Program-made: the position numbers and the translations under genes
The notes under the pieces: generated by a model
What the model saw: the letters and a program-made list of their open reading frames with translations, nothing else
What the model was told of the DNA's origin: nothing
Database searches by the model: none
In this document: one piece after another, positions 18,501 to 60,100 of the stretch
How the letters are laid out: each line of letters opens with the position of its first letter
Position numbering within the stretch: position 1 is the stretch's first letter
Source: Monosporascus cannonballus
Lineage: Eukaryota > Ascomycota > Sordariomycetes > Xylariales
Assembly: GCA_004154925.1 (NCBI GenBank)
Contig: QJNS01000018.1
Span: 372,001-436,000 of the forward strand
DNA: 64,000 bases
Direction: 5' to 3'

Positions 18501-20795
18501 GAAAATGCCTCGATATTTTCGTTATTTGTTATCTTAACGATATTCTTATTTTCTTAAAGACGGAAAAAATATATGCAGAATACGTTTATAAAATTTTTAA
18601 GTTTTATAAAACGTAAAGTTATTTATTAATACGGAAGAAAATTAATTCCATACATAAGAAATAAAATATTTAGGATATATTATTACCTTAAGATATATTA
18701 GGATAAACTTTAAGAAAATCGTTACAATTATAAAATAGCAGATATTAACGATAATTAAAGAGGTATAAGTATTCCTTGGATTCGCCAATTATTATACAAA
18801 GTTTATTCGAAACTTTAATAAGATAATTATATTTTTAACGAATCTTATAAAGAAAAAAAAGTTTAAATAAATGCCAGATATAGAAAAAATATTTTAAAAT
18901 ATAAGGATGCGGTTATTAATAAATTAATGTTAATTATGTACGATCCAAACCGTCTCGTAAAACTAAAAACCGATATTTCGAATTACGTATTAAATGTAAT
19001 AATCGGATAACAAAATAATTAAGGCAAATTATACTTTATTATATTTTTTTCGTATAAATTAAAAAAAGCTTAGCTTAATTACGGTATTCGAAATAAAAGG
19101 TTTATGGTTATTATTATGGCATTTTGGGAATTTAGGTATTTCTTAAAAGAAATTTTATATTAAGTTAAGGTTTATACGGATTATTAAAGTTTACCCGATT
19201 TATTACGACCAGGGAATTTATAAAACAATAATTAAGATGTGCAAAAAAATTGGCGAACTTCGATTTCGTTATTACCCATAAAAAAAACCAAAAAACGGCA
19301 GAACAAATATCCCAAGCAAATAATTAAGCCATAAAAAATTGGTCAAAATTAACCATATAATTTTTGATATTATTATAAAAAGATATTTAGGCTTACGACA
19401 AATTACGATAATTCGGGCAGTACCTTACAATATATATCAAAGAATTTAATAATATAATGACGGTTTCCCAAAAAACTAAAGAACGGATAAAATACAAATT
19501 TCCAAAAAATATTAAAAAGATTTAATACGAAAAATACATAAATATCAGTTATATAAATATTCAAAAATCCACAAAATCCTAAGAAAATCTTAACGTATAT
19601 ATTTTTTTCCTAAAATAAAATTAATAATACAAAAAATTATACGGTAATGCGATATTTGCGCTAAAGCAAAAACTCGATAACATAAGCCATACGGAAAGTT
19701 ATAGCTATTATTAGTCATAAAGCAACCATAATATTTAGTTATATTCGACTTTATTATTAAGTTTATTATATTAAAAAATCCAATTACGGGAATATATTAC
19801 GATAACATTTTCGTAATTATTAATTGATTTACGAAATTTTCTTATTTTTTACCATATTATAAGAACATAAACGCCAAACAATTAATATTTTTATTTTTAA
19901 AAATATTTTTAACGTATACGGATTATTAATCAAAATTATATCAAATAAGGGATTAACCTTTATATTTAAGTTTTGGCAAAGCTTTATAATATAAATCGGC
20001 TTAAATCATAAATTATTTAACGTATTTAAAATTAAAACGGATAAATAAATAAAATAAATAAATTAAAATTTGTAAACATACTTACGATATTATATTAATT
20101 ACGAACAAAATAATTAAGTTAAAAAATTACCGATTATTTAGCTAATTTATAATATTAGTTATTACGAAAACATTAAAATAATATTTATAAATACAAATTT
20201 TGGTTTTATTTTAAAATTTTATAAAAAAATACGTAATAATAATTTAATTAATATCAAAATAATTTTTATATTAAAATAATTACGATATTTTTATTAAGAA
20301 ATAAAAACAGAATTAAAATTTGTACGAAATTAAATAAGTAAATATTATAATTAAAAAAAGTTAAAAAAATTAACTTTTAAAAAAGGAAAAATAGTTTTTT
20401 TCGTTATAAAAAATATTTAAATAAAATAACTTAACAAAAAATCCGATTTCAAATATATCGGTCTATACAAAATTGCTAAAAAAAATCTTAAAAAATAATT
20501 ATTAATTGGAATTTTTACCGAAAATTAAATTTTATTTAATTTTTTCCATTTTTTTATTTAAGTTAACAATAAATTCGATTAAGGTGCATACGGTATAAAA
20601 CAATATGAAAATAAAAGATAAATAAATATACGAAATAAAAAAACATTCGATATGCGAAAATAAAACGGATTTACTTAGTACTTGATTAAATGGAAAAAGC
20701 ACCCAGATTTCGAAAATACCTGGGAACCCGCCAAGAATTTTATTAGCGCCTAACGCCTGTTGAAAAATTTTCATCAGTAACGACGAACGCGTCCC
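15523..20795 (+). pseudogene. Element A gag-pol polyprotein, RIP-inactivated
   Basis: Gag starts at ATG 15523 and shows KPKKPEPYDKKGN. The nucleocapsid knuckle at 16317-16358 reads YFNYGKIGHKAYKY, with cysteines changed to tyrosine but CCHC spacing kept. The protease C-terminus is read as NYDIILG near 17650-17680. The reverse transcriptase shows LVIDYRQLN near 18230 and YLND (from YLDD) at 18530-18541. RNase H lies around 18930-19300. The integrase zinc-binding CDICAKAKT starts at 19648, with the core VIINRFTKFSYFLPYY around 19810. A chromodomain is readable near 20690-20770 as YLIKWKKHPDFENTWEP, which places the element among chromoviruses. Stops occur throughout, largely TAA/TAG where CAA/CAG is expected. 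Confidence 0.85.
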
Positions 20796-21372
20796 AATTA
20801 ACAATCGACCAGTTAATAACCGGGATATTAGGCCAGTCGATTACGGCCTGCATTAACGTAATAGCCGTAACGGCGGCCTTTAACTATTTTTATTTTTAAC
20901 GTTTTTACTTTTCTAATTCGTTTAACGATTAAAACCTATATTATACCATAATAATATCTTTCGAACAAATTAACGTTTTTTATTTATACAAATAAATAAA
21001 ACGAAAAAAAACTTTATTTATATTTTTTTAATATTTACGTTAAACTTTGAAATAAAGCCGTTAAAACTTTCATAATTATTTTTCGGCAAACGTTTTTTTA
21101 CGTTTTAAACGTTAATATTTATAATAAATATTTTGCTAAGAAAAAATAAATACGTTAATATTATTATAGGATTAACCTTAATTAATATATTCCTTATACT
21201 TTAAAACATTTTCCATTATTTTATACCTTATATTTTTCGAAAAATAATAAGAGTAAGGTATAATTTTGTAACCAAATTCGTTAAAGGCTTCTACGAGGTT
21301 AATACGACGAACGGTAGAAAAACAGAGAATGCGATAAATTTTAGAAATACGAAACGATATAATTAAAAGCAA
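20690..21372 (-). pseudogene. Element A antisense ORF with Zn(II)2Cys6-like cluster, decayed
   Basis: Reading opposite to pol, a frame opens by 21372 and runs FNEFGYKIIP, then a six-position cluster at 21253-21166. Its Cys positions are now Tyr, with spacing x2, x6, x8, x2, x6. The frame continues past the cluster and is again readable as VINW...NWDAFVVTDENFSTG opposite the end of pol. The spacing equals that of fungal binuclear zinc clusters. Elements B-F carry the same feature at the same place. Function is unknown; a DNA-binding protein encoded by the transposon is an inference. Confidence 0.6.
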
Positions 21373-21449
21373 AAAAAAGATATTTACTAAATAAAGAAAA
21401 AAGGAAAAAAAGAAATCTTAAGGGCAAGATTTAAGGAGGGGGGAGGTCG

Positions 21450-21835
21450 TATTACGACCCGATAAGCTCCGGTCTCAAAAGACGGTTAGATAGGGAGTAT
21501 ACGGGCCACCTCCCGGGTTACGTAATTATGATCATTGCCAAGCCAGTGATCATTAATAATCAAAGGTAATCCCAAATGATCGTAATTATTATTAACGGCA
21601 TAATTACAAATAATTAAGCCAAAAAGAAAAAGGATATATACGTTTATTATTTCCATAATTTAAATAATTTCAGCTTACAACATTTATTAATATTAATCGT
21701 TTATAATAAAATATTTCCGGTATTAAGAGACGTAACACGATTACTATATCCATTACTCAGATTCCCACGATACTTCTGCTAACATAAACCCGTCGACTTA
21801 GGTTTAATAATTGGTTAAACCGCCTAGCCGTCACA
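21450..21835 (+). repeat. Element A, 3' LTR
   Basis: 386 bp. The inner end starts TATTACGACC (TG changed to TA) while the outer end keeps GTCACA, followed by the TATAG target duplication. It differs from the 5' LTR mainly by C/T and G/A transitions. Confidence 0.9.
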
Positions 21836-21840
21836 TATAG

Positions 21841-23923: not shown

Positions 23924-24316
23924 TGTTACGACCTGACAAATTACGGCCTCCAGGAACGGTCGTAACAGAAAAGGCCAAGAAAATTATGTAGATCAGGTTA
24001 CGTAACGGATTACCAACTCACTGATGGTAAGCCAGTAAGCCGGATTACCAACTTAGTGATGGTAAGTTAATAAGCCGGATTATTAACTTATTGGTAATAA
24101 TCCAGCTAACTGAATAAAAATATATATATTTATTATTTTCATAATTTAAAATAATTTTAATTTGTAATATTTATTAATATTAGTTATTTATAATAATTAG
24201 GTATTAAAAGATATAATACGTTACTATATTTATTACTTAAATTTTACGATATTTTTATTAATATAAACCCGTCGACTTAAAATTTAATAATTGGTTAAAT
24301 TATATAGTACGCTATA
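23924..24316 (+). repeat. Element B, 5' LTR
   Basis: 393 bp, beginning TGTTACGACC. The outer 150 bp are nearly unmutated. It contains three 35-bp tandem units at 24006-24110. The end GCTATA corresponds to GCCACA in the 3' LTR. Confidence 0.9.
24006..24110. repeat. Three 35-bp tandem repeats in the LTR of element B
   Basis: Units at 24006-24040, 24041-24075 and 24076-24110 each begin CGGATTA. The first two contain TGATGGTAAG; the third is more diverged. The same array is present, more mutated, in the 3' LTR (about 30340-30445), and partly in the LTR of element G (about 61160-61235). The position upstream in the LTR suggests a regulatory (U3) role, which is inference. Confidence 0.8.
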
Positions 24317-24376
24317 TATTGTAAGCTTTTATTTAGTAATACCGTTAAATTCTAAACAATATTTATTATTGTTAAA

Positions 24377-27300
24377 ATGTTGACCAGTATTTAGGAAACC
24401 TTTATTTAGCAGCTTTAAATTTAAATTCAGGAATTAGAGAAAAAAGTTCGATAATTTAGGGCTACGCCACTTACTTAACCCTTTTTCGCCCGTATGAAGC
24501 CCAAAAAACCGGAACCTTATGATAGGAAAGGTAATTTTCAGATTTTTTTGATTTAGGCATAAATTTATTTTTGTTTTTTAAACCTTAGTAATCCAGCAGA
24601 TATGGTTTTAATAATGGGAATATGCTTAATAGGAAATACGGCTGATTAGTTTGAGCTTATTATAAGATATTTCTGAAAAGTAAGAGAAATAAATAAAGAA
24701 AATTCCATTAACGAGATTTTTTAATTTATATCAATTTCGAAAATAAAGTATGCGATAATTTCGGCAATCCGTATAAAAAACGATTTACGGCTTAATAGGT
24801 TTTATAATTCCAATAAAAAGAATTTGCGTTTAAGTATGCCATAACCGTTAAAGGTTTTGCGGCTAAGGCGAGATGGGGAAATAACGAAACTAACGTTTTT
24901 ATCGATATATTTTATAAAGAATTTAAAAATAATATAAAAGATAAAATTATTCGGATTAAACTATTAATTGCTTTAAATCGGTATATTATAAAGGTAATTA
25001 AGATTAATAATCGACAGTTCAAAAAATAATAAAAAAAATAATATGTTTTACGTTCGGGTTATAATAAATTTAACCAAGGGGAAAAAAGATATATCCTTTA
25101 TTTTTTATAAAATAACGTTAGGATTTATGGAATTTAATGTTACCTATAGATAAAATTAAAGCCATATTAAATGTTTTAATTATAGCAAAATGGGATATAA
25201 GGCATAGAAATAAAAGAAACTTAAGAAATTAAAATAAAATATTTAAACCCTTATACCGGAAAATTAAGCCAAAAACAATTAAGGAAATGATAATAAAGTT
25301 ATTAATATGATTTAAGCTAAATATATATTATGTTTATACCAAAAAGTCCGACCGGAATTATTATAATAAGAAATTTAATAAGGAATATAAAAAGTTAAAA
25401 AGCTGGCTTAATAAGTATCGCGAGCATAATAAAAAATATTATAAAGATAATTACGCAAATACCAGAATTAAATAAAAGAAAGTTATTTCGGAATACCTAA
25501 TTAATACGGCGGAATGTATGCCATATATTGTTAACGACGAAAATACCCCGATTTTGAAAAATGGAAAAAATATATTTATATACGAATTACCCGTATATAT
25601 TACGAAAGATTTGATTTTCCAAACCGAACCGGGCATAATAAAAATAATAAATAATAGTATTAACAGTTTCGAACCATAACCCCAGGAAATGTTTAACAGC
25701 TGGCCGAAAAAAAAGCTGGCTTAAGGAAAAATAATGTTTACAAAAAGATCCCTTTTGTTATTATAAATAATATAATTATTAAACGGAAAAAGAATTAATT
25801 TAACGTACGGTAAAAAACATTATTAAAGGGTTATTACGGATTTTTACTTTTAATTAGCATTTATTATAAATCCTTAAAAAAGGAAAATTATTAATGAAAA
25901 AATACGTTGATATGCGGGGGATTTTTGAAATAATAACTAAGATAATATATAATAGGATATAATCGTAAATATGAGAAAATAATTTATTCGATAGGAAAAA
26001 GAATTATAAAAGAATTAAGAATAACTGATATAATTTGAAGAAATAATATGCCGGCAATAATGATAAATATAGTAATTTAACGTACTAAACAAAAAAATAT
26101 AAGTAAGGTTTAATAAATTCGAATAAAAATTAAAAGAAAAAGGTTATTTATAAGAAAACTGCAAAATAACGAAACTTAAAAAAATTAAAAGGTATTCCGA
26201 AAAAGGTTTTAAATGCGACAATAAGAAATATTAATAATTTTATTATTTTAAATATACGAATCGGAACGTATTGGTATATTGCAATAATAAATTACGCAGC
26301 TTTAGGCAGAAATTAAATTATACCGGATATGCTTAATAAATTTAAATTATTATGGAAATATAAGTTAAAACCTTATATAACGACGAATGCTGAAAATTAG
26401 GAATTCGTTTACGATAACGAAAAAATTATATATAAAATTAATTATTTCGAAATTTTTGTTAAAAATGATATTAAATTATTAATTTCGATATCGTTTTATT
26501 CGGAAATTACGATATGATCTTAGGATTATTATAAATACGTTAGTACGGAATTTTAATTAATGGCAGAACAAGCTAGGTAAAATTCGTTTTATTTCTTATT
26601 AATAAACGAAAAAAAGAAAAATTAAGATTTTAATATTTAATCGATAATAGCGACGAATGTAAATATAAAAATACGATAAATAACTTATTACTTAAAGAAA
26701 CAAAATACCAAAAAATAGGTATTAGAAAATATAACGTATTGTTATTTTTATTAAAACGAAATTAAAATAACTGATTAACGATTTAAAATAATAAGAATAA
26801 CAGCCTAAAGAATTAAAAAATCTAATTAATATATTATTATAATATTATAGATATAAGTAGTTCTTTAAAAAAAGGTTTAATATAGAATTACCAGAATATA
26901 AAGAATAGGATTATGAAATAATTTTTAAAAAATGATTTTCGACAAAGTTTTAACTTATTTATAATTTTAACGGAAACGAATTATATATTTTTAAAAAATA
27001 CTTGGAAGATCGGCTACAAAAAAAATGAATTTAACTGTCGAAATTATTAATACGATATCTTATGTTTTTCGTATTTAAAGAAAATGGAAAATTACGATTT
27101 GTAATTAATTATTAATAATTAAATAACGTTATTATTAAGGATCGAATATTATTACCCTTAATTACGGAAATAAAAGATTAACTTTATCGAATTAAATAGT
27201 TTATAGTATTTGATTTTAAAGATAAATATAATCTTATTAGAATTAAGAAAAGATACGAATAAAAAATAGCTTTTAAAATAAAATACGAATTATTTAAATA

Positions 27301-29660
27301 TTTCGTTATATTAATGGGATTTACGAACGTATTAATAATTTGTTAGCGGATAATAAACCATGTATTACGAAAATACCTTAATGTTTTTGTCGTTTGTTAT
27401 TTCGACGACATTTTTATTTTCTTAAAGACGGAAAAAACATACGCAGGATATGTTTATAAGGTTTTTTAAGTTTTATAAGATGTAAGATTATTTGTTAACG
27501 TAAAACAGAATTAATTCCATATACGGGAAATGGAATATTTGGAACATATTATTACCTTAGGATATATTAAAATAGATTTTAAGAAAATCGTTATAATTAT
27601 AAAATAATAGATGTTAATAATAATTAAGAAGGTATAAGCTTTTTTTGGATTCGTTAATTATTATAAAAAGTTTATTCGAAATTTTAGTAAAATAATTATA
27701 TTTTTAATAAACTTTACGAAAAAGAAAATTAAAATAAATACCAGATATGGAAAAGGTATTTCAGGATATTAAGGATACGATTACCGGCGAACTAATATTA
27801 ATTATGTACGATTTAAACCGCCTTGTTAAGGTAAAAACCGATATTCCGGATTATACGTTAAACGTAATAATCGGATAACAAAATAATTAAGGCAAATTGT
27901 ACCTTATTAAATTTTTTTCCTACAAATTAAAAAAAGCCGAATTTAATTACGGTATTCCAAATAAGGAATTTATGGCTATTATTATGGTATTTCGAAAGTT
28001 TAGGCACTTTTTAAAGGGAAATTTGTACCAGGTTAAAGTTTATACGGATTATCAAAATTTTACCCGATTTATTACGATTAGGGAACTTATAGAACGATAA
28101 TTAAGATATACGGAAAAATTGGCGAACTTAAACTTCGTTATTATCCATAAAACAGGATCAGAAAATGGTAAAGCAGATATTTTAAGTAAACGACTAGATT
28201 TCGAACAAAAATTGGTTAAAATTAGTTATATAATTTTCGATATTATTATAAAAGGATATTTACGCTTATAACAAATTGCGATAATTCGGGTAATACCTAG
28301 TAATATATATTAGAAAATCTAATAATATAACGATAATCTCTCAAAAAATCAAAAAATAAATAAGATATAAATTCCAGAGAAATATTAAAAGGATTTAATA
28401 CGAGAAATATGCGAATATTAATTATATAGATATTTAAGGATTTATAAGATCTTAAAACGATTTCGACGTATATATTCTTTTCTTAAAATGGAATTAATGG
28501 TATAAAAGTTTATACGGTAATATAATATTTGCGCTAAAATCAAAGTTTGATAATATAAGCTGTACGGAAAATTACAGTTATTATTAATTATAAAACGACT
28601 GTGGTATTTAGTTATATTTGACTATATTACTAAATTTCCTATATCAAAAGATTTAGCCATAGAAATATATTATAATAGCGTTTTCGTAATCGTCGACCGA
28701 TTTACGAAATCTTTTTATTTTTTACCATATTACGAGGATATAGACGCCGAACAGTTGGTATATATATTTTTAGGCATATTTTTAATATATGTAAATTACT
28801 TATAAAAATTATATAAAATAAAGGATTAACTTTTGCATCAAAATTTTAATAAGGCTTAATAACATAAATAAACTTAAATCATAAATTATCTAACGTATTT
28901 AAATTTTAAACAAATAAATAAATAAAACGAATAAATTAAACTTTAAAACTTTACTTACAATATTATATTAATTAGGAACAAAATAATTAAGTTAAGAAAT
29001 TACTAATTGTAGAATTAACTTATAATATTAGCTATTACGAAAATATTAATATAATATTTGTAAACGCAAATTTTGGTTTTATTTTAAAAATTTATAAGGA
29101 AATACGTAACGACGGTTCAATTAATATCAAAATAACTTTTACGTTAAAACAGTTATAATAGCTGTACCAAGAAATAAAGACGGAATTGGAATTCGTACGG
29201 AATCGGATAAGTAAGTATTACAATCAGAAAAAGTTAAAGGGATTAATTTTTAAAAAGGGGGAAATGGTTTTTTTCGCCACAAAAAACATTTAAATAAAAC
29301 GACCCAGTAAAAAATTTGATTTCAAATATATTAGTCTATACAAAATTATTAAAAAAATCTCAGAAAATAATTATTAATTAGAATTTCTAGCAAAAGTTAA
29401 ACTTTATTCAATTTTTTATATTTCTTTATTCGAATTAATAACAGATATAATCAAGGTATATACGGTATAGGACGATATAAAAATGGAAAATAAATAAACA
29501 TACGAAATAGAGAAAATTATCGATATGCGAAAATAAAACGGATTTACCTAGTACCTAATTAAGTGAAAAAAATATCCAGATTTTAAAAATACTTAAGAAC
29601 TTGCTAAAAATCTTATTGGCGCTTAACGCTTATTAAAGAATTTTCACTAGTAACGGCGGA
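24377..29660 (+). pseudogene. Element B gag-pol polyprotein, RIP-inactivated
   Basis: Gag begins at ATG 24377. The gag segment KPKKPEPYDRKGN and a knuckle relic (CFN..., about 25166) are readable. The reverse transcriptase keeps its catalytic motif intact as YFDD at 27398-27409, although stops surround it. The RNase H segment is open at 27897-28100 (FSYKLKKAEFNYGIPNKEF ... VYTDYQNFTRFIT), the clearest protein evidence in this element. The integrase zinc-binding and core regions are near 28530 and 28600-28800, including VIVDRFTKS. Confidence 0.85.
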
Positions 29661-29679
29661 ACTACCTGAAATAATAATA

Positions 29680-30215
29680 TCCCAGTCTACGAGATCCAAG
29701 GAGGGAAACCTTTGGTTTACCATATTTCAATTAATAACGTCCATTTCTTTTAAAGCTTAAACTTCGATTACGGATTCCGATTTTAATTATGTAAAGTCGT
29801 TGAAATTATTTAAGGATTAAAAAGTACGATTAACAAGTTTCGTACCTTAAAATTGATAATACTGGCGTTAATAACGTATGCAAAAAAGACGCGTAAAGGC
29901 TTTAAATAAAGATTTTTCGGCTGTTAGCTTTTTTTAAAAAAGTTTTTCGATTCCGCAATATGGTAATTAATTATAAATAGAAGGATTTTTATTCCGTTAT
30001 ACGAACGATTTCGACGGACATATTTCTTATAATAAAAAATTTTATTTATTATTTAGTAATTAAGCTGCCGAACAGAATAGAAAAAATAAGGTATCGCGTC
30101 AAAATTTTCGAATTTAATTAAATTAACCAAGGCAAGTCGTTATTCGGATTTACGAAAACGACGTTTGGACATACCGGAAAACATATTAAAAGTATACGGA
30201 AAAAACTTACCAGAA
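29680..30215 (-). pseudogene. Element B antisense ORF with Zn(II)2Cys6-like cluster, decayed
   Basis: On the minus strand, MSKRRFRKS and a segment ending FENFDAIP lead into a six-position cluster at 30088-29999. Its spacing is x2, x6, x8, x2, x6, identical to elements A and C. It contains KKYVRRNRSYNG, where Y marks former Cys. The frame continues for about 100 further codons. It lies between pol and the 3' LTR and is convergent with pol. Confidence 0.6.
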
Positions 30216-30258
30216 AAAAAGAAATTTTAAGGGTAAGATTTTAGGAAAAGGGAAATCG

Positions 30259-30651
30259 TATTACGACCTAATAAATTACGGCCTCTAGGAACGATCGTAA
30301 TAAAAAAGGCCAAAAAAACTATATGAATTAGGTTACGTAACGGATTACTAACTTATTAATAGTAAGCCAGTAAGCCGGATTATTAACTTATTAATAATAA
30401 ACTAATAAGCCGAATTACTAACTTATTAATAATAATTTAACTGACGGAATAAGGATATATACATTTATTATTTTTATAATTTAAATAATTTTAATTTATA
30501 ATACTTATTAATATTAATCGTTTAAAATAACCAGATATTCAAAGACGTAATACGTTATTATATTTATTGCTGAGATTTTTATAATATTCCTGCTAACATA
30601 AACCCGTCGACTTAAGGTTTAATAGTTGGTTAAACCGTATAGCACGCCACA
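30259..30651 (+). repeat. Element B, 3' LTR
   Basis: 393 bp. The inner start is TATTACGACC and the outer end ACGCCACA, followed by target duplication CTGCC. The inner half is markedly more mutated than the corresponding half of the 5' LTR. Confidence 0.9.
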
Positions 30652-31140: not shown

Positions 31141-31198
31141 CGTTATAAGCTTTTATTTAATAGTACCGTTAAACTCTAAGCAATATTTAACACTGTTA

Positions 31199-36440: not shown

Positions 36441-37047
36441 GACGACGGGCGTATCCCAATTAACAGTTAACCAGTCGGTAGCCGGGATGCCGGGCCAATC
36501 GGCCGCGACGTATGCCGACGTAACAACCGTAACGGCAGCCTCCAATTATTTTTGTTCCCGACGCTTTTATTTTTTTTAATTCGTTTAACGATTAGAGCCC
36601 CCGTTATACCATGGTAACACCTTTCGAACGAACTAACGTTTTTTGTTTACCTAAACGAATAAAACGAAAAAAAGTTTCGTTTATTTTTTCCTAATATTTG
36701 AATTAAATTTCGAAATAAAACTGTTAAAACTTTAATAATTATTTTTCGGTAAACGTTTTCTTACGTTTTAAACATTAATATTTATAATAAATATTTTATA
36801 AGGAAAAAATAAATATGCCGATATTATTATAAGATCGGCCTCGATTAACATATTTCTTATACCTTAAAATATTTTCTATTATTTTATACTTTATGTTTTT
36901 CAAAAAATAATAAAAGCAAAACATAATTTCGTAATCAAATTCGTTAAAGGCTTTTACGAAATCAGCACGACGAACGGTAAAAGAACGAGGAATACAACGA
37001 ATTTTGGAAATACGAAACGATATAATTAAGAGCAAAAAAAAGAACAC
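36390..37047 (-). pseudogene. Element C antisense ORF with Zn(II)2Cys6-like cluster, decayed
   Basis: An open stretch of 83 codons (37047-36796) contains FNEFDYEIM followed by the cluster at 36918-36829. The first position is still Cys and five are Tyr, at spacing x2, x6, x8, x2, x6, with NRGRSYNN after it. Upstream lies RISKIRCIPRSFTVRRADF, shared with element A. It is the best-preserved antisense cluster among the plus-strand elements. Confidence 0.65.
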
Positions 37048-37128: not shown

Positions 37129-37491
37129 TGTGACGGCTATACGGTTTAACCAACTATTAAACCTTAGTCGTACGGGTTTATGTTGGCAGGAGTATCGTGG
37201 GAATCTGAGTAATGGATATAGTAACGTATTACGTTTCGTAATACCAAGGGTGCCTTGGGTAACGAAGTTGTATTATAAGCTAATATTATTTAAACCGTGG
37301 TAACGAGCGTATCTTATATATTGTTTACTAATTCCTGTTTTGTCCAGATTCGTTGGACTCGCTGGCGATCCTAGCGATCCAAACTTGCTGGACTCGCTGG
37401 CGATCCTAGCGATCCTTACGGTTACGTAATCTGGGACGTTTTTACTTTCTTTAATTATTTCTGGTTATGCTAAACGTATTAGGTTATGATA
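37129..37491 (-). repeat. Element D, 3' LTR (left copy)
   Basis: 363 bp. The outer 100 bp are less mutated than the matching inner part of the right copy. Two 35-bp tandem units lie at 37346-37380 and 37381-37415, each ending GCGATCCTAGCGATCC. Confidence 0.9.
37346..37415. repeat. Two 35-bp tandem repeats in the LTR of element D
   Basis: The units share CTGGCGATCCTAGCGATCC almost exactly and remain GC-rich in both LTRs (the second array is at about 43816-43885), although the neighbouring sequence is RIP-mutated. Within each unit GCGATCC is itself repeated. Confidence 0.85.
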
Positions 37492-37559
37492 CGATTTTTC
37501 CTTTTTTAGGATTTTCGTCCCGAAAATTAATTTGTAAGTATTTATTTTAAAATAATTTC

Positions 37560-38200
37560 CCGCGTTAGAAAATATGCTAAACCTTTATTTAAGGTAAAAA
37601 TTACGTAACGTAATTCGTTATTTGCTGTTATTTTATTTAACCTTCGTTAAATAACGTTTTGTTCTTATTGCGAACGGCGGAAACTTAAATATAAGTTATC
37701 CGAGGAAGATTTTTCCCGTTACTTTTCGTACGTCCGTTACCAGCAGGCCAACTATAACGTTTATGGTTTAAGCCCGGAACAGTTGCAGAAAATTGCTACT
37801 TAATACCGTAAGTTCGAAAAAAAGTTGGAGGCCGTTATGGAAGCCGAGGAATTCGCTAAGGCTTATATTTGTCATATTTGGAAATAAAAAAAAATATAAT
37901 ATAAAAAAATGATAAAAGCTGTATCTCGTGGTATTAACAATTTAAAAGAACTGGACGAATTAGAACGTAAGAAATAGGCAAAGGCCGCAAAAGTTACGTT
38001 AATATCGTCTGCCATTTTTTTTGATTAGTTCAATATTAAGCTTACGGATTAGTCCGTTATTAATTGGGAGGCTTTTGATTTTGCCGCTTTTGACGTTACT
38101 GGTAAAAGTTTTTTAATAAACGCTAGGCGCCAATAAGGTTTTTGGCGGGTTCCTAGGTATTTTCAAAATCCGGATAATATTTTCACTTAATTAGGTACTA
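37560..38200 (+). pseudogene. Element D antisense ORF with Zn(II)2Cys6-like cluster, decayed
   Basis: On the plus strand, opposite to D's pol, the cluster begins at 37660 with CSYCERRKLKYKLSEED and ends at 37755. The spacing is x2, x6, x9, x2, x7, and the first two cysteines are intact. It continues NVYGLSPEQLQKIAT, a charged coiled-coil-like stretch (FEKKLEAVMEAEEFAK), then MIKAVSRGINNLKELDELE and SVINWEAFDF. About 200 codons are readable with only a few stops, which makes this the most complete copy. The downstream helical region resembles a set of fungal hypothetical proteins I recall, of the type CxxC...SPxQLxxI. Confidence 0.7.
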
Positions 38201-41200
38201 AATGAATTTATTTTGTTTTCGTATTTCGAAAATTTTCTTTACTTCGTATACCGTTTTATCTTTTATTTCCATATTATTTTATGCCGTATGTACTTTGATG
38301 GTATCCGTTATTAATTCGAATAAGGAAATATGAAAAACTAGATAAAATTTAACTTTAAATGGTAATTTTAATTAGTAGTTATTTTTTAAGATTTTTTTCT
38401 TAACTTTATATAAACCGATATATTTAAAATCGAATTTTTAATTTAGGCGTTTTATTTTGATATTTTTGATAGTTAAGTAAATTATTTCCCCTTTTTCGAA
38501 AATTAATCCTTTTAATCTTTTTTCGTTATAATATTTATTTATTTAATTCCGTATAAATTTTAATTCCGTTTTTATTTCTTAATATAATTATCGTAATTAT
38601 TCCGATATAAGGATTATTTTAATATTAACTAAACCGTCGTTACGTATTTCTCTGTAAACTTCTGGAATAAAACCAAAATTCGCGTTAATTGGTATTGTTT
38701 TAATGCTTTCGTAATAATTGGTATTATAAGCTAATTAGGTAATAGGTAATTTCTTAACCCAGTTTTTTTGTTTATAATTAATATAATATCGTAAGTAAGC
38801 TTTTAAGGTTTAGTTCGTTCGCTTTATTTATCCATCCGTTTAAAGTTTAAATGCATTAGATAATTTGTGATTTAAGCCGATTTATAATATAAGGCTTTGC
38901 CAGAACTTAAATATGAATATCGATCCTTTATTTAAAATAATTTCTATTAATAATCCGTATATATTAAAAATATTTCTGAAAAAAATATATATTATTTATT
39001 CCGTATTGGTATCCTTATAATATGGTAAAAAGTAGAAAAATTTCGTAAATCGATCGACAATAACGAAAATACTATCGTAATATATTTTTATTACTAGATT
39101 TTCGGATAAAGGAAGTTTAATAATAAAATCCATAATAATCGAATCCTATGGTTTTTTTAAGACTGGTAATAATTATAACTTTCTATAGGGCCTATATTAT
39201 TACGCCTTAGTTTTGTTACAAAAGTTATATTATCGTCGTACTTTCTGAACTATTATTTTTATTTTAAAAAAGGAATATATGCGTTAAAGTTTTTTTAAGG
39301 TTTTGTAAATCCCTGGGTATCTATATAATTAATATTCATATATATTTCGTATTAAATTTATTTAATACTTTTTTAGGACCTATATCTTATTCGTTCTTTC
39401 ATTTTTTAGGAAATTATTATTATATTATTAAATTTTTTGATACATATTTAAGGGTATTGCCCGAACTGTTATAATTTATCGTAAACGTAAATATCTTTTT
39501 ATAATAATATCGAAAATTATATAATTAACTTTAACCAACTTTTCTCCAAGTTTTGGTTATTTACTTAAAATATCAATTTTACCATTTTTTGAGCTCTTTT
39601 TGTAAACGATAACGAAATCAAAGTTCGCCAACTTTTCTGCGTATCGTAATTATCGGCCTGTAAGTTTTTTGGTCGTAATAAAACGGGTAAAATTCTAATA
39701 ATCCGTATAAACTTTAACCTAATAAAGATTTCCCTTCAGGAAATATTTAAATTCTTTAAAGGCCATAATAATAGCCATAAATTCCTTATTTGGAATACCG
39801 TAATTAAATTCGGCTCCTTTTAACTTATATAAAAAAAATACAATAGGATATAATTTGCCTTAATCGTTTCGCTACCCGATCATTACGCTTAACGCGTAAT
39901 CCGATATATCGGTTTTTAACTTAACGGGGCGACTTAGATCGTACATAATTAATACCGGCTTACTAGTAATTATATCCTTAATCTTCTAGAACGTTTTTTT
40001 TGTTTTTGGCGTCCATGTAAACTCTTTTTTTTTCTTAATAAAGTTAATTAGGGGTATAACAATTTTACTAAAGTTTCGAATAAACTTCCTGTAATAATTT
40101 ACAAATCCAAAAAATACTTATACCTCTTTAACTATCGTTAGCCTTTGCCATTTTGTAATTGCAACGATTTTCTTAGGATCCATCTTAATATATCTTGGGA
40201 TAATAATATATCCTAGGTATTTTATTTTTTACTTATGGAATTTACTTTTTTTTACGTTAATTAATAACTTTACGTCTTATAAAGCTTAAAGGACTTTATA
40301 AACATATTTTACGTATGCTTCTTCTGTTTCTAAGAAAATAAAAATATTATCGAAATAATATATAATAAAAACGTCAAAGTATTCCCGTAATATATAATTT
40401 ACTATTCGTTAAAAAGTTATTAATACGTTCGTAAATCCTATTAGCGTAATTAAATACTTAAATAATTTATATTTCGTTTTAAAAGCTATTTTTTATTTAT
40501 GTCCTTTTTTAATTTTAATAAGGTTATATTTATTTTTGAAGTCGAATACCGTAAACCATTTGGTTTTATGAAATCGGTTTTTTATTTCCGTAATTAAAGG
40601 TAATAATATTCGATTTTTAACAATAATATTATTTAATTATCGATAATTAATTACGAATCGTAATTTTCTGTTTTTCTTTAGCACGAAAAATATTAGATAC
40701 CTTGCTGGTAACTTTAAGGGTTAAATCTATCCCTTTTGTAACCGATTTTCTAAGTATTTTTTAAAAACGCGCAATTTATTTCCGCTAAAATTGTAAATGG
40801 GGTAAAATTTCGTTAAAAAACCTTTTTTAAGGACAATTTCGTAATTTTATTCGCTATGTTTTAATAACTTCGTATCCAGTTCCTTTTTGAAAAACTGCTT
40901 ATATTTGTAATATTATAGTAATATATTAATTAAATTTTCTAACTTTTAAAGCTATTATTTTAAATCGTTATTTAATTGCCGTAACTTTGCTTTAATAATA
41001 GTAACGATACGTCGTATTTTTCTTTAATGCCTATTTTTTTTTTTGTATTTTATCCCTTTAGGTAATAAGGTATTTATTATATCTTTATGCTTACATTCGT
41101 CGTTATTTCCGATCGAATATTAAAATCTTAATTTTTTCTTTTTTTACCTATTAATAGGATATAAGGCGAACCTTATCTGGCCAATCTCTCCATTAATTAA

Positions 41201-43560: not shown

Positions 43561-43598
43561 TAAAATTTAACGGTATTATTAAATAAAAGCTTATAACG

Positions 43599-43961
43599 TA
43601 TAACGGCTATACGGTTTAACTAACTATTAAACCTTAGTCGTACGGGTTTATATTAGCAGAAATATCGTAAAAATCTAAATAATAAATATAATAACGTATT
43701 ACGTTTCGTAATATTAAGGATGCCTTAAATAACGAAATTATATTACAAGCTGATATTATTTAAACCGTGGTAACGAACGTATTTTATATATTATTTACTA
43801 ATTCTTATTTTGTCCAAATTCGCTGGACTCGCTGGCGATCCTAGCGATCCAAATTCGCTAGACTCGCTGGCGATCCTAGCGATCCTTACGGTCACGTGAT
43901 CTGGGACGTCTCCACTTTCCTTGACTATTTCTGGTTGTGCCAAGCGTGTTAGGTCATGACA
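43599..43961 (-). repeat. Element D, 5' LTR (right copy)
   Basis: 363 bp. The outer 90 bp (from about 43870) retain C and G at many sites that are T or A in the left copy. The inner end is TATAACGG, where the left copy has TGTGACGG. Confidence 0.9.
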
Positions 43962-43966
43962 ACCTC

Positions 43967-44320
43967 GGCCTCAAGAAACGGTCAAACAAGGATTATACGG
44001 GCCATCCCATAGGTTATGTACCGGTAATTATTACTAAGCCAGTAATCAGAAGTAATTAAAAAAAATTATTAACAATTATGATTACCATTAACCGCATAAT
44101 TATAAATAATTAAGCTAAAAAAAGGAAAATATATATATTTATTATTTCTATAATTTAAATAACTTTAGCTTATAATATAATATCGTTACCTAAGGTACCT
44201 TTGATATTACGAAACGTAATACGTTACTGTATTTATTGCTCAGATTCCCACGATACTCCTGCCAACATAAACCCGTCGACTTAAGGTTTAATAGTTGGTT
44301 AAACCGCCTAGCTCGTCACA
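43967..44320 (+). repeat. Element C, 3' LTR, remainder after element D
   Basis: 354 bp continuing from the 20 bp at 37109-37128 and ending GTCGTCACA-like (CTCGTCACA). CTGCT (44321-44325) follows as C's right target duplication. Confidence 0.88.
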
Positions 44321-52400: not shown

Positions 52401-52930
52401 CTTTACGGCGCTCCAGTCGAAAAAAGTAAATATTTTTATTAACGTATCCAGCTTTGAAAGAAGCCATATTTATTCCTTTTTTTTTACGATCTTTTTCCAC
52501 GTTTAGTTTTTTCCGTTTCTTTAATTTATCCATATTTTAAAGCCTTTTCTGAATAAACGACATTCCTTTAGAATATAATTATTCGGATTGGCGATTTAAC
52601 CGAATAATACGATTAAACAATTTTTAAAACTGTTAAACCGCCAGACGTTTTTTTTCGATTTATCCGATATTTTTTAGCCCGAATATTTTTAAACGATAAA
52701 AACGAAATATAATTCCTATCGTAAGTTTAAATATTAACTGCCAAACAATTTTAATAACTCCTCCGGCCTTTTAATATTTTGCACGAAAGTTTCTTTTTAA
52801 AATAACGCGTATACGGCATAATTTCAAAACCAAATTAAAAGATTAACTTAATTAATTCGCAACGATTCTTAATAAAAAATTTAATACGTTTTCGAGGCCT
52901 GTCCGATATGGTTAAAAGCAATATTATAAT
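52330..52930 (-). pseudogene. Element E antisense ORF with Zn(II)2Cys6-like cluster, decayed
   Basis: On the minus strand the frame reads RPRKRIKFFIKNRCELIKLI then FGFEIMP. The cluster at 52813-52721 has spacing x2, x6, x8, x2, x7; its third and fifth positions are still Cys. FGFEIMP before the cluster matches FNEFDYEIM in element C, and RKR...KLI matches the corresponding lead-in of elements A-C. The open stretch 52533-52324 belongs to the C-terminal part. It is convergent with pol. Confidence 0.62.
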
Positions 52931-53007
52931 ATAAAAAATAAGAAAAAAAATTAAAGATTTACCTTTTTTTATTTTTGAAAACAAAAATCCTGGAAGGGAG
53001 GAAATAA

Positions 53008-53441
53008 TGTTACGTCCAGAAGGGATTCCACTAAACCTAAAAAAGGCCTGAAAAATTAAAAACGTCTAAGTTCTACCTTTTTCGGGTAAACCTCGGGTTT
53101 CTGTTAATCTCCAGAGATACCAGGAGACCAGCAGATATTAGCTATCATAGTTTTTCGTAATCTCCAAAGACTACGAAAAACGTGAAAAATGAAAAGAATA
53201 TATATATGATCAGCTATTGCTTCTGTAAATAATTACCTATTTAGTTCCGTTCCTTAGTTATTAATTTAAGCTCTTAGTCCAGAGATAATTGTACCGTTTT
53301 CTGATTAAGGGAAAAATCTTTAAATCTTTTTAACAAATAGACCCTAATAAATTATACCTCGCCTTATTGTTACCTGCAAATTAAGACCCCATTTCGGATA
53401 CTGCTTATACCTCCAGGTGGATATATGACAGGTTCGTTACA
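53008..53441 (+). repeat. Element E, 3' LTR
   Basis: 434 bp. The start TGTTACGTCC is not mutated at its terminal TG, unlike the other elements. The following 100 bp are more mutated than in the 5' LTR, while the outer 70 bp are better preserved. Confidence 0.9.
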
Positions 53442-53446
53442 TATTT

Positions 53447-53817
53447 TCAAATTAAGATAATTAACGAATATACCTTAAATAAGCCGAATTATTTAAAGTT
53501 CTAAAGAGCTTTAAAGGTATATAATAAGAAGTAATCCTTATATATCGTTTAAAAAAAGCATTCGTTGAAGTTAATACGTTTTTAACTTAATTCGTTTATC
53601 CTGATTATTATAAGATATATTAGAAAAAGGTTATATTTCGAAAAAGCGTTAAGTACATTAAAGAATAAATTTAAGCTTAATAATAACGTTTGAATTTACG
53701 AAGTTAACATTCGATATAAATAGACGTTAAAAGTTAACAGGATTTAAATAGATATTTGACTACTTATATGCAGAAAAATATATATTAAAGTTACGAAGCT
53801 TTATATCTTAGCCGTTA
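53447..53817 (+). pseudogene. Copia-like gag relic, left part
   Basis: A plus-strand frame with a few stops reads KPNYLKF-type sequence, then YIRKRLYFEKALSTLKNKF and TLKVNRI, up to the insertion site of element F. It resembles the N-terminal gag of fungal Ty1/Copia elements. The right part resumes at 60573. The assignment is tentative. Confidence 0.4.
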
Positions 53818-54139
53818 TATTACGATCTAGGCCAAGAACGGTTGCAAGAACGGTCGGACCTATACGAAAAAATTTCGAAACTTTGATCTCTTTTAGTAAT
53901 AAGATCTAGGTGAATTTATATTGAACCAATTGTATTTAATAGAAGTGAATTTATAATAACGTTAAAATATAATAAAGGAATAATTCATTTCTGTGAAATA
54001 TATATGTTGATTTTGATTATTAATTTAAATGACAATACTTTACAATAAAACATTATTACTTAGAATCTTACGATATTTTTATTAATATAAATCAGTGCGA
54101 TTTAAATTTAATAATTGGTTAAACCTTTTAGCCATTATA
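53818..54139 (+). repeat. Element F, 5' LTR
   Basis: 322 bp, starting TATTACGATC and ending AGCCATTATA. It is homologous to the LTR ends of elements A-D (TTTAATAATTGGTTAAACC). An internal deletion relative to the 3' LTR is evident. Confidence 0.8.
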
Positions 54140-57100
54140 CCTTACAAACTTTTATTTAATAATGTTATTAAACTTTACGTAATACATAAAATTATTATAT
54201 TAACCAATAAATAAGAGTATTACCTTAATAATAAGAACTTAATTCCGATATACAATTAAGGCATTAAAAATTCAAATATAACAACTTACGTTAGATTTAA
54301 TACGAAAGAATATATCCAAACTTAAAGTCAAAAAGCCGTAATCTTAAAACGGAAAGAATAATGCATAAAATTTCTTTATTTTGACAAACATATATCTTAA
54401 ATTTCGGAGATTTAAGAAATCAGCGAATAAAACTTTCGCTGTTATAGCTTTTTTAACGAAAACCACAGTTAGTTAATTTAAACTTATAATAAAGATTATA
54501 TAGAATATATCGAAACAGATAAAAAAATATTTAATAAATGATTTTTTTACGATTATACTAATTTTAAAAACTCCGACGAATATGCTATTATTACTTAAAA
54601 AACCGTTTAAATACGATAGAAAAAGCCAATATCGACATATATATTAATATTTAAAAACTGTATAATTAAAATAGAATAAAGCCATGGCGCCGAAAATATT
54701 TATATTAATATATTTTACAAAGGATTAAAGGATACCGTTAAAAACAAAATTATTAAACTTTCGAAATCTAAAACTTTAAATTAATATATTACGGGAGTTA
54801 TCAAAACCGATAATAAATTATACGAACGACGTATTAAAAAACAAATATATTTTAAGATATAGAAGTTAATTAGTTAGTTACACAAGTAATATATTATTTA
54901 CATGCTATAAGATAATATAAGAATGTATGAAATTCGAAATCATTTCATACAAAAATAACAATCTGGTTAAGTTCTATAATTACAGCAAAATAGATTTTTA
55001 CTAAAGTGCTTATAAAAAACTTAAAAACTTATAATAAAATAATTAAATACTTATACTGAAAAGGTAATTTAAAAAGAATTAAAAGAAGAATAATAAAATT
55101 ATTAATATAATTCGAACCTTATATGAAATAAGGTTACTATAATAAGGAGTCTAACGAAAAATGAGAAAAATAAAGAAACTGGCTTAAAAAACATCCGGAA
55201 AATAATAATATGCATTAAAGAAATACTTGAAAAATATGAGAAAAAAATGTAAAAAAGGTTATCTCGAAGTTGTTAACCGATATAACAAAATATATGTAAT
55301 GCATTTTGGATAACGAAAACACTTAATATATAACGATTAAAAAAGTTTATTTATTAACAAGTCGTACGTATATATAAAAAATTTTTAATTTTTCTAATTA
55401 AACTAGAAATAACAAAACAAATAAACGATAAGGTTGATATTTTTAAATTATTACCTTATAAAACCATATTAACAAACGAATAACTTTATAAAATTAACTA
55501 CATAAAAATAATACGAGAAAAAAACCTTTTTTATTTTTATAATTAATATAATTCTTAATTTGTAAAAGGTTAATATAGTATATAATAACGGAATATTGCT
55601 AAAAAGCTATTATAGATATTTATTTTCAATAAGCATTTATGATAACGCTTTAACATAATAAAGTTTAAAGAAAGGAATTTTATAATTTACTTGAAAACCT
55701 TATTAAAAAGCTGAAAGGTTATACAAAAAACATAATAAGAATTTATATAATATATTAAATAATCCTTACATAAGAAGCTAAAAAATTATAATTTAAGTTA
55801 CAAAACAGTTAATTTACTTTAAAAACAAATATATCGACAGAAATAATAAATAAAATAATTCGGCGTATTATACGAAAAAATCTAAATAAGGTTTAACAAA
55901 GTCGAAAAGAATTAAAACAAATTATTTTTTATAAAAAGGTATAAAATAACGAAACTAAGGAAAGTTAAAAAATACAATTTAAAAAGGGCTTTAAACATAA
56001 CGATAAAAACTGCTAATAACTGTAATACTTTGAAAATATAACTCGAAACGCATTAGTATATTTTAATAATAAATTGTCAGATTTCAAGTAAAAATTATAT
56101 TAAATCGAATAGTATTAATAAATTTGATTTACTATGGAAATATAAGTTAAAATCTTATATAATTACGAATACTAAAAGTTAAAATTTCCTTTATAATAAC
56201 TTAAAAGTTTTATACGAAATTAATTACTTTAAAACATTTATTCAAAAACAATATTAAAGATTAATTTCGATATTCTTTAATTTAGAAATTACGATATAAT
56301 ACTAGAAATATTAAAGATATATTAACATAAAGTTTTAATCGACAACAGGGTTCACTAGGCAAAATTTGCTTTATATTCTATTAATAATCAAATTTTAAAG
56401 AAAAAGAGAATTTAATATTCGATCGAAAATAGCGAGAAATATAAATATAAAAATATAGTAATTATGTTATGACATAAGAAAATAAAATACCAAAAACAAA
56501 GTATTATAAATACGACGTATTGTTACTGCTATTAAAATCAAAATAAGTCATTAAATAACAGTTTAAAATAATATTTTTTAAAATTAAAAACTTTTATAAA
56601 ATATTATTACAATAATACAAATATAAACAATTGTTTTAAAAGCAAATTAATATACTGTTACTAAAATATAACGAATATTATTATAAAATAATTAAAAAAA
56701 GAGTTTATTAACGAGAATTTGCCGCATTTAATATTCTAACGAACACGAATTACGCGTATTTCAACAATATTTGAAAAATTGGCTACAAAAAAATAAAAAG
56801 TTATAGTTTATAGTGAATTATCGATAATTAAATAATACGACAAATAAAGATTAAATACTATTACCTTTAATTACTAAAATAAAAACCAATTTTACGAAAT
56901 TAAATAATTTATAATATTTGATATTAAAAATAAATATAACTTTAATAAAAATAAAAAGAAGATACGAATAAAAATGTTTTTAAAACGAAATACGGATTGT
57001 TTAAGTAATTAATTATGTCAATAAGATTTACAAACGCATTAATAATATTTTAACTAATAATAAATTATATATTACGAAAATATCTTAATATTTTTATTAT

Positions 57101-58315
57101 ATAGCATCTCGACGATATTCTTAGATATTTAGAAATAAAAATTAAAAGATTTAAAATATATTAAAATAAAATTTAAAAATCGTTATAATTATAGAATATT
57201 AAATGGTAATAATACTTTAAAAAGATGTAAGTATTGCTTAAATTTGTTAAATATTATAAGAAATTTATGCGAAATTTAATGAAATTAAAATAACCTTACT
57301 TAATCTTATTAAAAACATTTAAATAAACGTGAAAAATAGAAAAAAGGTTTTAAAAAATTAAATATACGATACTTAACGAATTAATATTAATTATATATAA
57401 TTTAACACGCTTTATCGAACAAAAAACCAATATTTAAAATGATGTTTTAAGTGAAATAATTAAATAACGAAACAATTAAAGCAAGGTATATTTTATTATA
57501 CTGATTCGTATAGATTAAACAAAGCCGAATTTAATTATACTATTTTTAATAAGGAATTTATGGTTATTAATATACCTTTTCGAACATTTAAATATTTTGT
57601 TCAAAAAGTCGGTTTTTAAATTAAATTTTATACGAATTATTAAACTTTACAAATTGTATTACAATTAAAATTATTACGAAACATTAATTACAATATATAA
57701 AAAAAATAACAAACTTCAATTTTACATTACTAATTATATTTGAAAAGAAATTAATTAAAATAGATTATAATATTTTTAGTATTATTTTAGAAAAATACTA
57801 AGGCATATATTAAATTCTAGTAATACACGTTATATTATATTATATATATTAAAGGTTTAAAATATATAACAATAATATATTAAAATATTACAAAGTGGGT
57901 AAGTTATAACGTATTAAAAAGTATTAAATAAATTTGGTATATAATATAAACAAATATTAATTATATAAATATATAAAAATGTATAAAATTTCAAACCGAT
58001 TTTAATATATTTATTATTTTCTTAAAATAAAAATGATAATAAAAGAGTACTAAAATAATATAAATTTTATATTAAGATTAAAATATAACAGTATAAACTT
58101 TGCGAAAAATTATAAATATTAGCATTTTTAAAAGAATTATAAATTGAAGAATTATAAATATTTTTATAAAATTTTCGTAATTTAATAATTTAATATTAAA
58201 AATATCGCATAATAATATTTTCGTAATCATTAACACATTTACGAAACCGTGTTATTTTTTAATTTATTAAAAAAATAATTTCGAATAATTATTATATATA
58301 TTTTTTCAGAAATGC

Positions 58316-58320
58316 TTTCA
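58316..58320. repeat. Target duplication TTTCA of the TRIM, left copy
   Basis: It is identical to 58775-58779 on the other side of the element. Confidence 0.85.
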
Positions 58321-58453
58321 TGTTACGGTTTGAGGGTACCGTATAAGCTCCAGTATATATATAGCTGTAAGCACCAGGATGATTGTCATAATTGCGATCA
58401 TTCCACCAATCTTTTGAGCCCCGGTGGTATAACGGTATGGTGCAGCCGTAATA
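58321..58453. repeat. TRIM left terminal repeat
   Basis: 133 bp. The outer end is TGTTACGG; the inner end is CCGTAATA, where the right copy keeps CCGTAACA. Confidence 0.88.
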
Positions 58454-58501
58454 TAATGATCGCATGACGGCGGGTGACGCCTTAATACTAGGTTCGATCC
58501 C
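58425..58501 (+). promoter_or_regulatory. tRNA-like A box and B box pair within the TRIM
   Basis: TGGTATAACGG matches the tRNA A-box consensus and GGTTCGATCCC matches the B box, about 55 bp apart. GCCGT and ACGGC between them could pair as an anticodon-like stem with a long loop. A 4-of-5-bp T stem is possible, but no acceptor stem forms. The sequence therefore may be tRNA-derived or an internal polymerase III promoter, but is not a functional tRNA gene. Confidence 0.4.
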
Positions 58502-58641
58502 TAAACTGGTCGTTGCTCACAAGGTTTTCCTAGACGCATACGGGGCAGTGCGGGGTAGACCTTGGGGGTTGGGCAGCTGTACCGTAGGTCGCGGCGAATC
58601 CAGGTGGCTTGGGGACCAAGCCAATGGAAGGTGGGGCAGAG

Positions 58642-58774
58642 TATTACGGTTTGGGGGTACCGTATAAGCTCCAGTATATATATAGCTGTAAACACCAGGA
58701 TAATTGCCATAATTGCGATCATTTTACCAATCTTTTGAGCCCCGGTGGTGTAACGGTATGGTGCAGCCGTAACA
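58642..58774. repeat. TRIM right terminal repeat
   Basis: 133 bp. The inner end TATTACGG shows one G-to-A change relative to the left copy. The outer end CCGTAACA is intact and followed by TTTCA. Confidence 0.88.
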
Positions 58775-59589
58775 TTTCAATATATAAAGATTATTATATA
58801 AACTTATATTTATTATAAAGTGATATTTAATTTCAAATTTTACAAAAAGGCTTTAAAATATGAATCGATTTAAATTATAACTTATTTAACATATTTCAAT
58901 CTTAAATAATATATAATCGAAATAATTAAATTAAATATAAAAACGGTATTTCAAATATTATATTAATTACGAATAAAATAATGGGGTAAAAATATAATTT
59001 ATTACTTAATTAATATATAATATATATTATTATAAAATTATTAAAACAAATTAAATAACTTAAAATTTTAAAATTATGTTCAATATTTTGAATTAAACAT
59101 ATAATAAATATATTAATATTAAAATAAATGAAATAATTATATTAGAAAATAAAAATAAAGCCATAATTTATTTGTAATTCAATAAATACATATTATAATT
59201 AAAAATAATTAAAATTTTATGTTTTAAAAAAAGACTTTATTTTGTTAAAAACTATTTAAACGAAAATATTTAATATCAAATTTAAATTTAAGTATACTAA
59301 TTTATATAAAATTATAAATATAATATCCACTTAAAGATAACTTTTATTCTTTTTTTATATTTTCTTATTTAAAGTAATACCAAATACTGTTAAACTTTTT
59401 ATAGGCCAAAATAATATAAAGATAAAATATAAACCTATATATCAAATAAAAAAAATGTTCGATATAAAAAAGCTGATTTACTAATATTTAATAAAATAAA
59501 AAAAATATTTAAATTTCGAAAATATATAAAAACTTGCAAAAAACCTTATAAACGCCTAATATTTATTAAAAGACTTTTATTAAGAAGGC

Positions 59590-60100
59590 TAGAAATGCTA
59601 ATAATTACTTTTCAATTAAAGGTTTTCGAAATAAATAATAGAAATTATTAATAAAGAATACAATTATAATAATATCGGCCTTTATACGTTTTTATTTTTC
59701 TATTTCGTTTATTAACTAAAGTTCGTAATTAATATTTTTAACGTATTTTTCGTAAAGAAATTGTTAATAATGTAAACGAAAAACATAACCAATAATTGTT
59801 AATATTGTTACTTACGCGCTAGATCTTTTTTTATTTTCTGTTAAAACTATAAAAAGGTTTTTCGACAATTACTTTCTTTCGATTTAAATAATCTTCTTTT
59901 TACTTAATACTTCGTAAAGAATAGATCCAAACGTCGAAATTATTATAATCATGACAATTTTTAATATACCCGTTATAACGACGAATTCTTTTTAAATATT
60001 TAATATTTTATATTATTTTCGAAATACAGCATATATAGTATAGTTTTCAATATCAAATTTAATAATATAAATAGCTAAAGATTATAAGACTTTTTTAATT
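59590..60100 (-). pseudogene. Element F antisense ORF with Zn(II)2Cys6-like cluster, decayed
   Basis: On the minus strand the first three positions of the cluster read YMLYFENNIKY from 60035, in x2, x6 spacing. After one frame change the last three read RYNGYIKNCHDY, ending at 59945, in x2, x6 spacing. The total length exceeds that of element A by a single base, consistent with one insertion. It lies at the same place between pol and the 3' LTR as in the other elements. Confidence 0.5.

Follow-up and report, generated by a model that had tools for sequence, protein, structure and literature searches.

Antisense genes at the 3' ends of LTR retroelements

Genes running antisense at the 3' ends of long terminal repeat (LTR) retroelements have been noted in plants and in Botrytis, mostly without a recognized domain or known function (PMC7264820; this and the other articles are cited from the parts accessible to us). 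Here we describe a gene of this kind, encoding a cluster of six cysteines (Cys6), in six Gypsy elements (A to F) of Monosporascus cannonballus, all within a 64,000-nucleotide stretch of the genome (assembly GCA_004154925.1, contig QJNS01000018.1, positions 372,001 to 436,000 of the forward strand) that we call the window and by whose own numbering positions are given. The fungal precedent is brtn, the original account of which, in Boty of Botrytis cinerea, is reportedly that of Zhao et al. in 2011 (Virology 417:248). The accessible literature places brtn antisense between pol and the 3' LTR of the Boty chromodomain Gypsy elements and gives its function as unknown (PMC7264820; treated also in PMC8365987, PMC4227169 and PMC5987419), reports a brtn-type antisense gene from Sclerotinia sclerotiorum as well (PMC7264820), and mentions a Monilinia transcript that resembles BRTN (PMC5987419). 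The gene in the window is like brtn in being antisense and in lying between pol and the 3' LTR of a chromodomain Gypsy element; the word zinc occurs in neither PMC7264820 nor PMC8365987. Because the family that we describe has a Sclerotinia sclerotiorum member (SS1G_00408), brtn may be a further member.

HBZ, the antisense regulator of human T-cell leukemia virus type 1 (HTLV-1), is a dimerizing basic leucine zipper (bZIP) protein. The fungal gene resembles it in its antisense position at a retroelement's 3' end and differs in that HBZ has a bZIP instead of a zinc cluster; we claim no homology, and a start from the 3' LTR (where the antisense promoter of HTLV sits; PMC7264820) and a dimerizing regulatory product would be further likenesses by analogy. 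The plant genes termed aORF-3R, found in Grande (gene23, whose product is nuclear), RIRE2, Retand and PvRetro13, encode products without clear similarity to other proteins, save for an SMC domain in ORF2 of PvRetro13 (PMC7264820); they differ in belonging to plant elements, and the accessible parts of that article mention no Cys6 cluster. Nor did the literature searched (titles and abstract openings, among the matches listed) hold a zinc-cluster antisense gene of fungal retroelements. An antisense gene at this place was already known in brtn; the Cys6 family, its breadth and the selection on it appear to be new.

The Cys6 antisense gene, its relatives and its selection

All six elements hold remnants of one antisense gene, which converges on pol and begins next to the 3' LTR (except in C, where it is displaced; Table 1). 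Their decay shows the C>T and G>A pattern of repeat-induced point mutation (RIP), and the GC content of the window over the elements is about 16-32%. Profiles built from other copies in the genome, with the window copies left out (ownA and ownD), detected the gene in 6/6 elements (E 5.0e-47 in A; remaining values in Table 1), and the best of 26 reversed decoys reached only 0.13; the antisense match is therefore not a product of chance, and the original prediction of an antisense open reading frame (ORF) with a six-position cluster in each of these elements holds. Profiles of public relatives gave 1.1e-13 in A and 4e-15 in C (both with profile A4), 1e-40 in D (A2), 2.6e-8 and 1.1e-5 in two frames of E, a weak 0.009 in B (A4), and no match in F. 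From A to E, the antisense strand bears six positions that are Cys or Tyr in the letters as observed, with the predicted spacing of x2, x6, x8/9, x2 and x6/7, and in F positions 1-3 and 4-6 lie in different frames. Likewise, an antisense cluster lies at each of the places predicted, but the spans given for A and F are not multiples of three. In E, cluster and coil are split between frames, and D, read as it stands, yields 158 residues with six stops, every one TAG or TAA. The read-through frames of D, A and E had no Pfam match, the domain being visible only via public relatives. The cluster is only part of the gene: an MS-R-like arm begins 88 (A), 88 (B) and 98 (E) nucleotides from the LTR, at least 100 nucleotides away in C (measured from the insertion point of D), and, in a looser reading, 62 nucleotides away in D.

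Public protein searches (E<=0.01), in which scoring was limited to the 7,993 and 7,997 candidates with the most words in common, yielded first two relatives and then 32 and 89 matches, 109 proteins in all, some of them fragments. In their combined alignment (A4, fragments included), Cys fills the six columns in 84/87, 85/87, 85/87, 86/91, 90/91 and 87/90 of the non-gap rows, and 13 of the 16 exceptions are Tyr; these homologous proteins keep the six cysteines despite low identity. The commonest spacings between Cys 2-3, 3-4 and 5-6 among 77 proteins fitting a loose pattern were 6-8-6 (35), 6-8-7 (13) and 6-9-7 (12), the same as had been given for the window elements. The relatives come from Monosporascus, Gaeumannomyces, Cryphonectria, Apiospora, Cordyceps, Colletotrichum, Sclerotinia, Lachnellula, Pseudogymnoascus, Ophidiomyces and Thermoascus, which we take to belong to the Sordariomycetes, Leotiomycetes and Eurotiomycetes. 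These relatives too would lie in retroelements. Proteins that some fungal genomes list as 'Zn(2)-C6 fungal-type' may in fact be encoded by such elements, and the chromodomain Gypsy elements of many Pezizomycotina probably carry the same third gene. The protein, of about 160-220 residues, consists of a basic arm, the Cys6 cluster, a long helix that is probably a coiled coil, and an acidic tail with Trp (present in 68/80 tails), the mean charges of arm, cluster and tail being +2.7, +3.3 and -5.8. One relative, P0024, joins a cluster and coil of the A/C/E type to a tail nearly that of P0003/P0006, either through module exchange between element families or as a metagenome chimera.

Within its own genome (88.8 Mb, 618 contigs), the frame of element D had at least 151 matches (best 150 of 604 candidates scored). 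In 45/45 loci with long flanks, an opposite-strand pol end was located 3' of the ORF, at distances of -34 to +513 nucleotides; the gene reaches the pol end, or slightly into pol, and the ORF lies mostly outside pol. Because these loci had been found via the ORF (window element D, L001, is among them, as are seven chosen for few stops), we took 20 further pol ends via the chromodomain piece of D (best 150 of 5036 candidates scored), hand-picked among the higher-ranking matches and avoiding places in the ORF lists. The ORF was present on the opposite strand in 20/20 (E 3e-10 to 5e-66), so that related elements lacking the gene, which the original prediction had named as evidence against itself, did not turn up among these D-like elements. 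The antisense gene belongs to an old homologous family with a fixed place about 60-100 nucleotides inside of the 3' LTR. In the own copies (52 D-type, 47 A-type), six columns per type were more than 80% Cys or Tyr with at least five Cys, and 606 of the 635 stops in these 99 copies fell at columns where another copy's codon gives that stop by C>T or G>A (a raw count, without a chance level). One of the 47 A-type copies had no stop in the matched stretch and one pol end lay within a 434-residue open frame; the degree of RIP therefore differs between copies. Locus L043 had two antisense genes about 0.7 kb apart, best scored by different profiles, which probably belong to nested or neighboring elements.

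Since RIP makes transitions, we used a codon test that counts transversions only and is blind to RIP, applied to ORF alignments alone: DNA alignments of disjoint nearest pairs at transversion distances of 0.02-0.2 were compared with a null in which each transversion was reassigned at random among sites with the same base (300 permutations). L015 and L043 were excluded beforehand from this test and from the stop count, for which 52 of 54 D-type and 47 of 49 A-type loci were kept, two of each being below the score limit. The antisense frame gave an omega_tv of 0.371 against a null of 0.897+-0.119 in the D-type (52 copies, 23 pairs, 10350 bases) and of 0.314 against 0.927+-0.074 in the A-type (47 copies, 20 pairs, 8433 bases), with 0/300 permutations reaching so low a value in either type. 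Transversions at antisense codon positions 1, 2 and 3 numbered 113, 65 and 192 (D-type) and 235, 133 and 463 (A-type), which is the order of a coding gene, with 122+-8 and 276+-13 expected at third positions. One sense frame, that sharing the antisense frame's third position, was also low (0.527 and 0.611; 0/300 permutations), as any frame of this class should be; the remaining four frames in each set lay within or above the null range and the antisense frame was lowest in both. None of the sense frames accounts for the constraint equally well, sense-strand constraint being the other finding that would have spoken against the original prediction. The transversion-only omega and the order of codon positions show that the antisense protein was selected before its copies were mutated: the gene was under purifying selection before RIP. 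Together with the public relatives and the geometry at 45/45 and 20/20 loci, this bears out the predicted old, selected gene convergent with pol, and the test itself offers a simple means to see selection through RIP. Across 44 loci, the mean transversion distance was 0.267 for the ORF and 0.105 for the pol end, the ORF being the faster to diverge. Mantel tests gave 0.54 for ORF-LTR, 0.57 for pol-LTR and 0.20 for ORF-pol (0/500 permutations each), but the DNA alignments are rough at these divergences and the coefficients carry little weight.

Cluster identity and possible roles

We favor, with moderate confidence, the reading that the chromodomain Gypsy elements of M. cannonballus carry a third gene, antisense and converging on pol, whose protein regulates the transcription of its own element through a zinc cluster. 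The antisense transcript would begin from a promoter in or beside the 3' LTR; the ORF starts 62-98 nucleotides from the LTR (A, B, D and E), so that a promoter would have scarcely any space elsewhere. The protein would enter the nucleus, dimerize through its long helix, bind DNA with its zinc cluster, most likely at the element's own LTR, and tune transcription of its own element in a manner comparable to HBZ. In a broader form that we hold only tentatively, a Pezizomycotina-wide lineage of chromodomain Gypsy elements would have its own antisense regulator with a zinc cluster, driven by the 3' LTR and playing in fungi the part of HBZ; brtn would be one poorly recognized member of this kind, and the gene would diverge together with the LTR that it reads. 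The conserved Cys6 cluster, helix and acidic tail make this a concrete biochemical hypothesis (zinc, DNA, LTR).

Despite RIP, the outer ~120-160 nucleotides of the LTRs show good conservation across elements that differ elsewhere, and they contain a near-palindrome. The predicted three unrelated LTR types proved too strong a description: E matched only itself, but A, B, C, D and F have part of an LTR-end block in common. In the block of A, C, D and F, the near-palindrome had 14 matches (<=3 mismatches; both strands and both LTRs counted) against 1.1 expected, 12 of which fall in the LTRs of these four elements; it is a candidate site only. A search for an operator of the simple CGG-pair kind gave a negative result.

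The protein might instead be an accessory transposition factor that binds chromatin or cDNA via the zinc cluster and aids nuclear entry, integration-site choice or particle assembly, which we consider unlikely but worth weighing. The chromosome-associated Zn2Cys6 proteins RSC30 and Cep3 appeared in a PDB sequence search, at E of only 5.9 and 8.5, and the gene was present beside every pol end examined (45/45, 20/20); however, the acidic Trp-bearing tail and the antisense position suit a separately expressed regulator better, and A and B already have a chromodomain for targeting (above cut-off, with D just below).

As for the cluster on which self-regulation would depend, its identity as Zn(II)2Cys6-type is probable. 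The pattern C-x2-C-x6-C-x5-12-C-x2-C-x6-8-C was present strictly in 63/109 public members and, with x6-8 between Cys 2 and 3, in 77/109 (the others include fragments without the cluster), which upholds the claim that the spacing falls within the consensus of fungal binuclear clusters. AlphaFold model 1 had a predicted local distance difference test (pLDDT) score of 87-95 over the cluster, and 7/8 of its Foldseek PDB matches were Zn2Cys6 DNA-binding domains; model 2 (cluster pLDDT 94-96) aligned, weakly, with HAP1/CYP1 and LAC9. The model alignments covered 40 residues of 1pyc at 2.7 Å and 39 at 2.9 Å, and 33 of 1cld at 2.0 Å. The PDB sequence search gave weak matches only, 4/24 being to the Zn2Cys6 proteins PUT3 (two sequences), RSC30 and Cep3 (E 0.7-8.5). 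The antisense protein is like fungal Zn2Cys6 transcription factors (PUT3, HAP1, LAC9, Leu3) in Cys spacing, in a cluster followed by a helix and, with weak support, in predicted fold; it differs in being small, antisense in a retroelement, and atypical in the residues between Cys 2 and 3.

Several results keep this identity short of proof. The fold matches were not significant, and Pfam Zn_clus (PF00172) matched 34/109 members at E<=1 (best 7.9e-5), mostly below its cut-off. When 22 members were scanned singly, one passed, eight were under the cut-off and 13 were unlisted at the E used; the sole passing match (P0057, 23.1 vs 21, residues 2-22 on profile 17-38) we read as a half-cluster out of register. 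In fungal Zn2Cys6 domains, basic residues lie between Cys 2 and 3 and include, in Gal4, the contact Lys; this usual DNA-contact Lys is rare in the antisense proteins, Lys or Arg occurring at C2+2 in 44, C2+3 in 31 and C2+4 in 9 of the 69 members with x6. All of these points would favor another zinc fold that is like Zn2Cys6 in spacing only, but both models align with Zn2Cys6 domains and the spacing is within the consensus, and we regard such a fold as rather improbable. The Zn(II)2Cys6 identity put forward in the original prediction is likely: the spacing agrees, the fold is similar with weak statistics, and Pfam Zn_clus scores are mostly under the cut-off.

A protein directed against the host, acting as a counter-silencing factor or steering host genes and derived from a captured host zinc-cluster gene, seems to us improbable. 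It would fit the Zn2Cys6-like layout and the faster divergence of the ORF, as expected in conflict, but weaker constraint explains that divergence equally well, omega is clearly below 1, and no host target is known. It is scarcely credible that constraint on the sense strand or on the RNA gave rise to the antisense frame incidentally, with no protein made: one sense frame had lowered omega too, and antisense transcripts alone may silence elements (accessible parts of PMC7264820), but 4/5 of the other frames lay within or above the null range, the antisense frame was lowest in both sets, the homologous proteins hold six Cys at low identity, and the ORF is mostly outside pol. The codon test, the 45/45 and 20/20 geometry and the profile scores led us to reject chance, a sense-strand by-product and 'ordinary pol sequence' alike.

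The six elements and their setting

The elements were delimited by LTR pairs (Table 1). D is nested in C in inverted orientation, where it separates C's 3' LTR from C's antisense gene, and has a 5-bp duplication; F, placed by its repeats, has the orientation of A-C. A clear target duplication was looked for at the ends of E and none was seen.

Table 1. Elements, pol-end chromodomains, antisense genes and conserved LTR stretches in the window
Feature	Position	Strand	Details
Element A	15078-21835		5' LTR from 15078; 3' LTR 21449..21835 (+); 5-bp target duplication TATAG, intact
Element B	23924-30651		5' LTR from 23924; 3' LTR 30261..30651 (+); 5-bp target duplication CTGCC, intact
Element C	30762-44316		5' LTR 30762-31136; 3' LTR 43944..44316 (+)
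Element D	37129-43961	inverted	3' LTR 37129..37489 (-); 5' LTR 43603-43961; target duplication ACCTC
Element E	46177-53447		5' LTR 46177-46611; 3' LTR 53008..53447 (+)
Element F	about 53815-60578		3' LTR 60203..60578 (+); 5' LTR matched only at 53815-54059; partial matches
A chromodomain, pol end (sense)	20655..20777	+	convergent with antisense gene; Pfam Chromo 1.3e-8, above cut-off
B chromodomain, pol end	29501..29647	+	Pfam Chromo 2.1e-6, above cut-off
D chromodomain, pol end	38105..38248	-	Pfam Chromo 2.1e-5, 24.8 bits, just under 25.1 cut-off
A antisense gene	20755..21360	-	RIP-broken; Cys/Tyr cluster about 21253-21166; ownA match 20809-21315; A2 match reaches 20755
B antisense gene	29742..30172	-	badly decayed; cluster 30088-29999; ownA E 7.7e-10 and 1.6e-4
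C antisense gene	36562..37023	-	cluster 36918-36829; ownA E 2.2e-41
D antisense gene	37552..38094	+	best preserved of six; cluster 37660-37755; ownD E 3.8e-83
E antisense gene	52462..52909	-	cluster 52813-52721; ownA E 7.8e-23 and 1.9e-11
F antisense gene	59680..60043	-	badly decayed; frame change inside cluster; cluster 60035-59945; ownA 3.0e-10, second piece 0.059
Conserved outer LTR stretches	37133-37250, 43603-43714, 21720-21831, 44154-44320, 60408-60559

At the pol ends, SH3_Tf2-1 was above the Pfam cut-off in D (2.2e-8), in B, and in E together with the integrase zinc domain, and was below it in C; the Pfam scan of the pol ends found no pol domain in F. An Rfam scan of the window gave no match. 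Between C and E, a non-RIPed island holds a 166-residue ORF (44946-45446, minus strand) with no Pfam match at E<=0.001. In F, a GC-richer insertion (35-59%, in surrounding DNA of 7-16% GC) that contains an internal repeat breaks the integrase region at 58300-58790.

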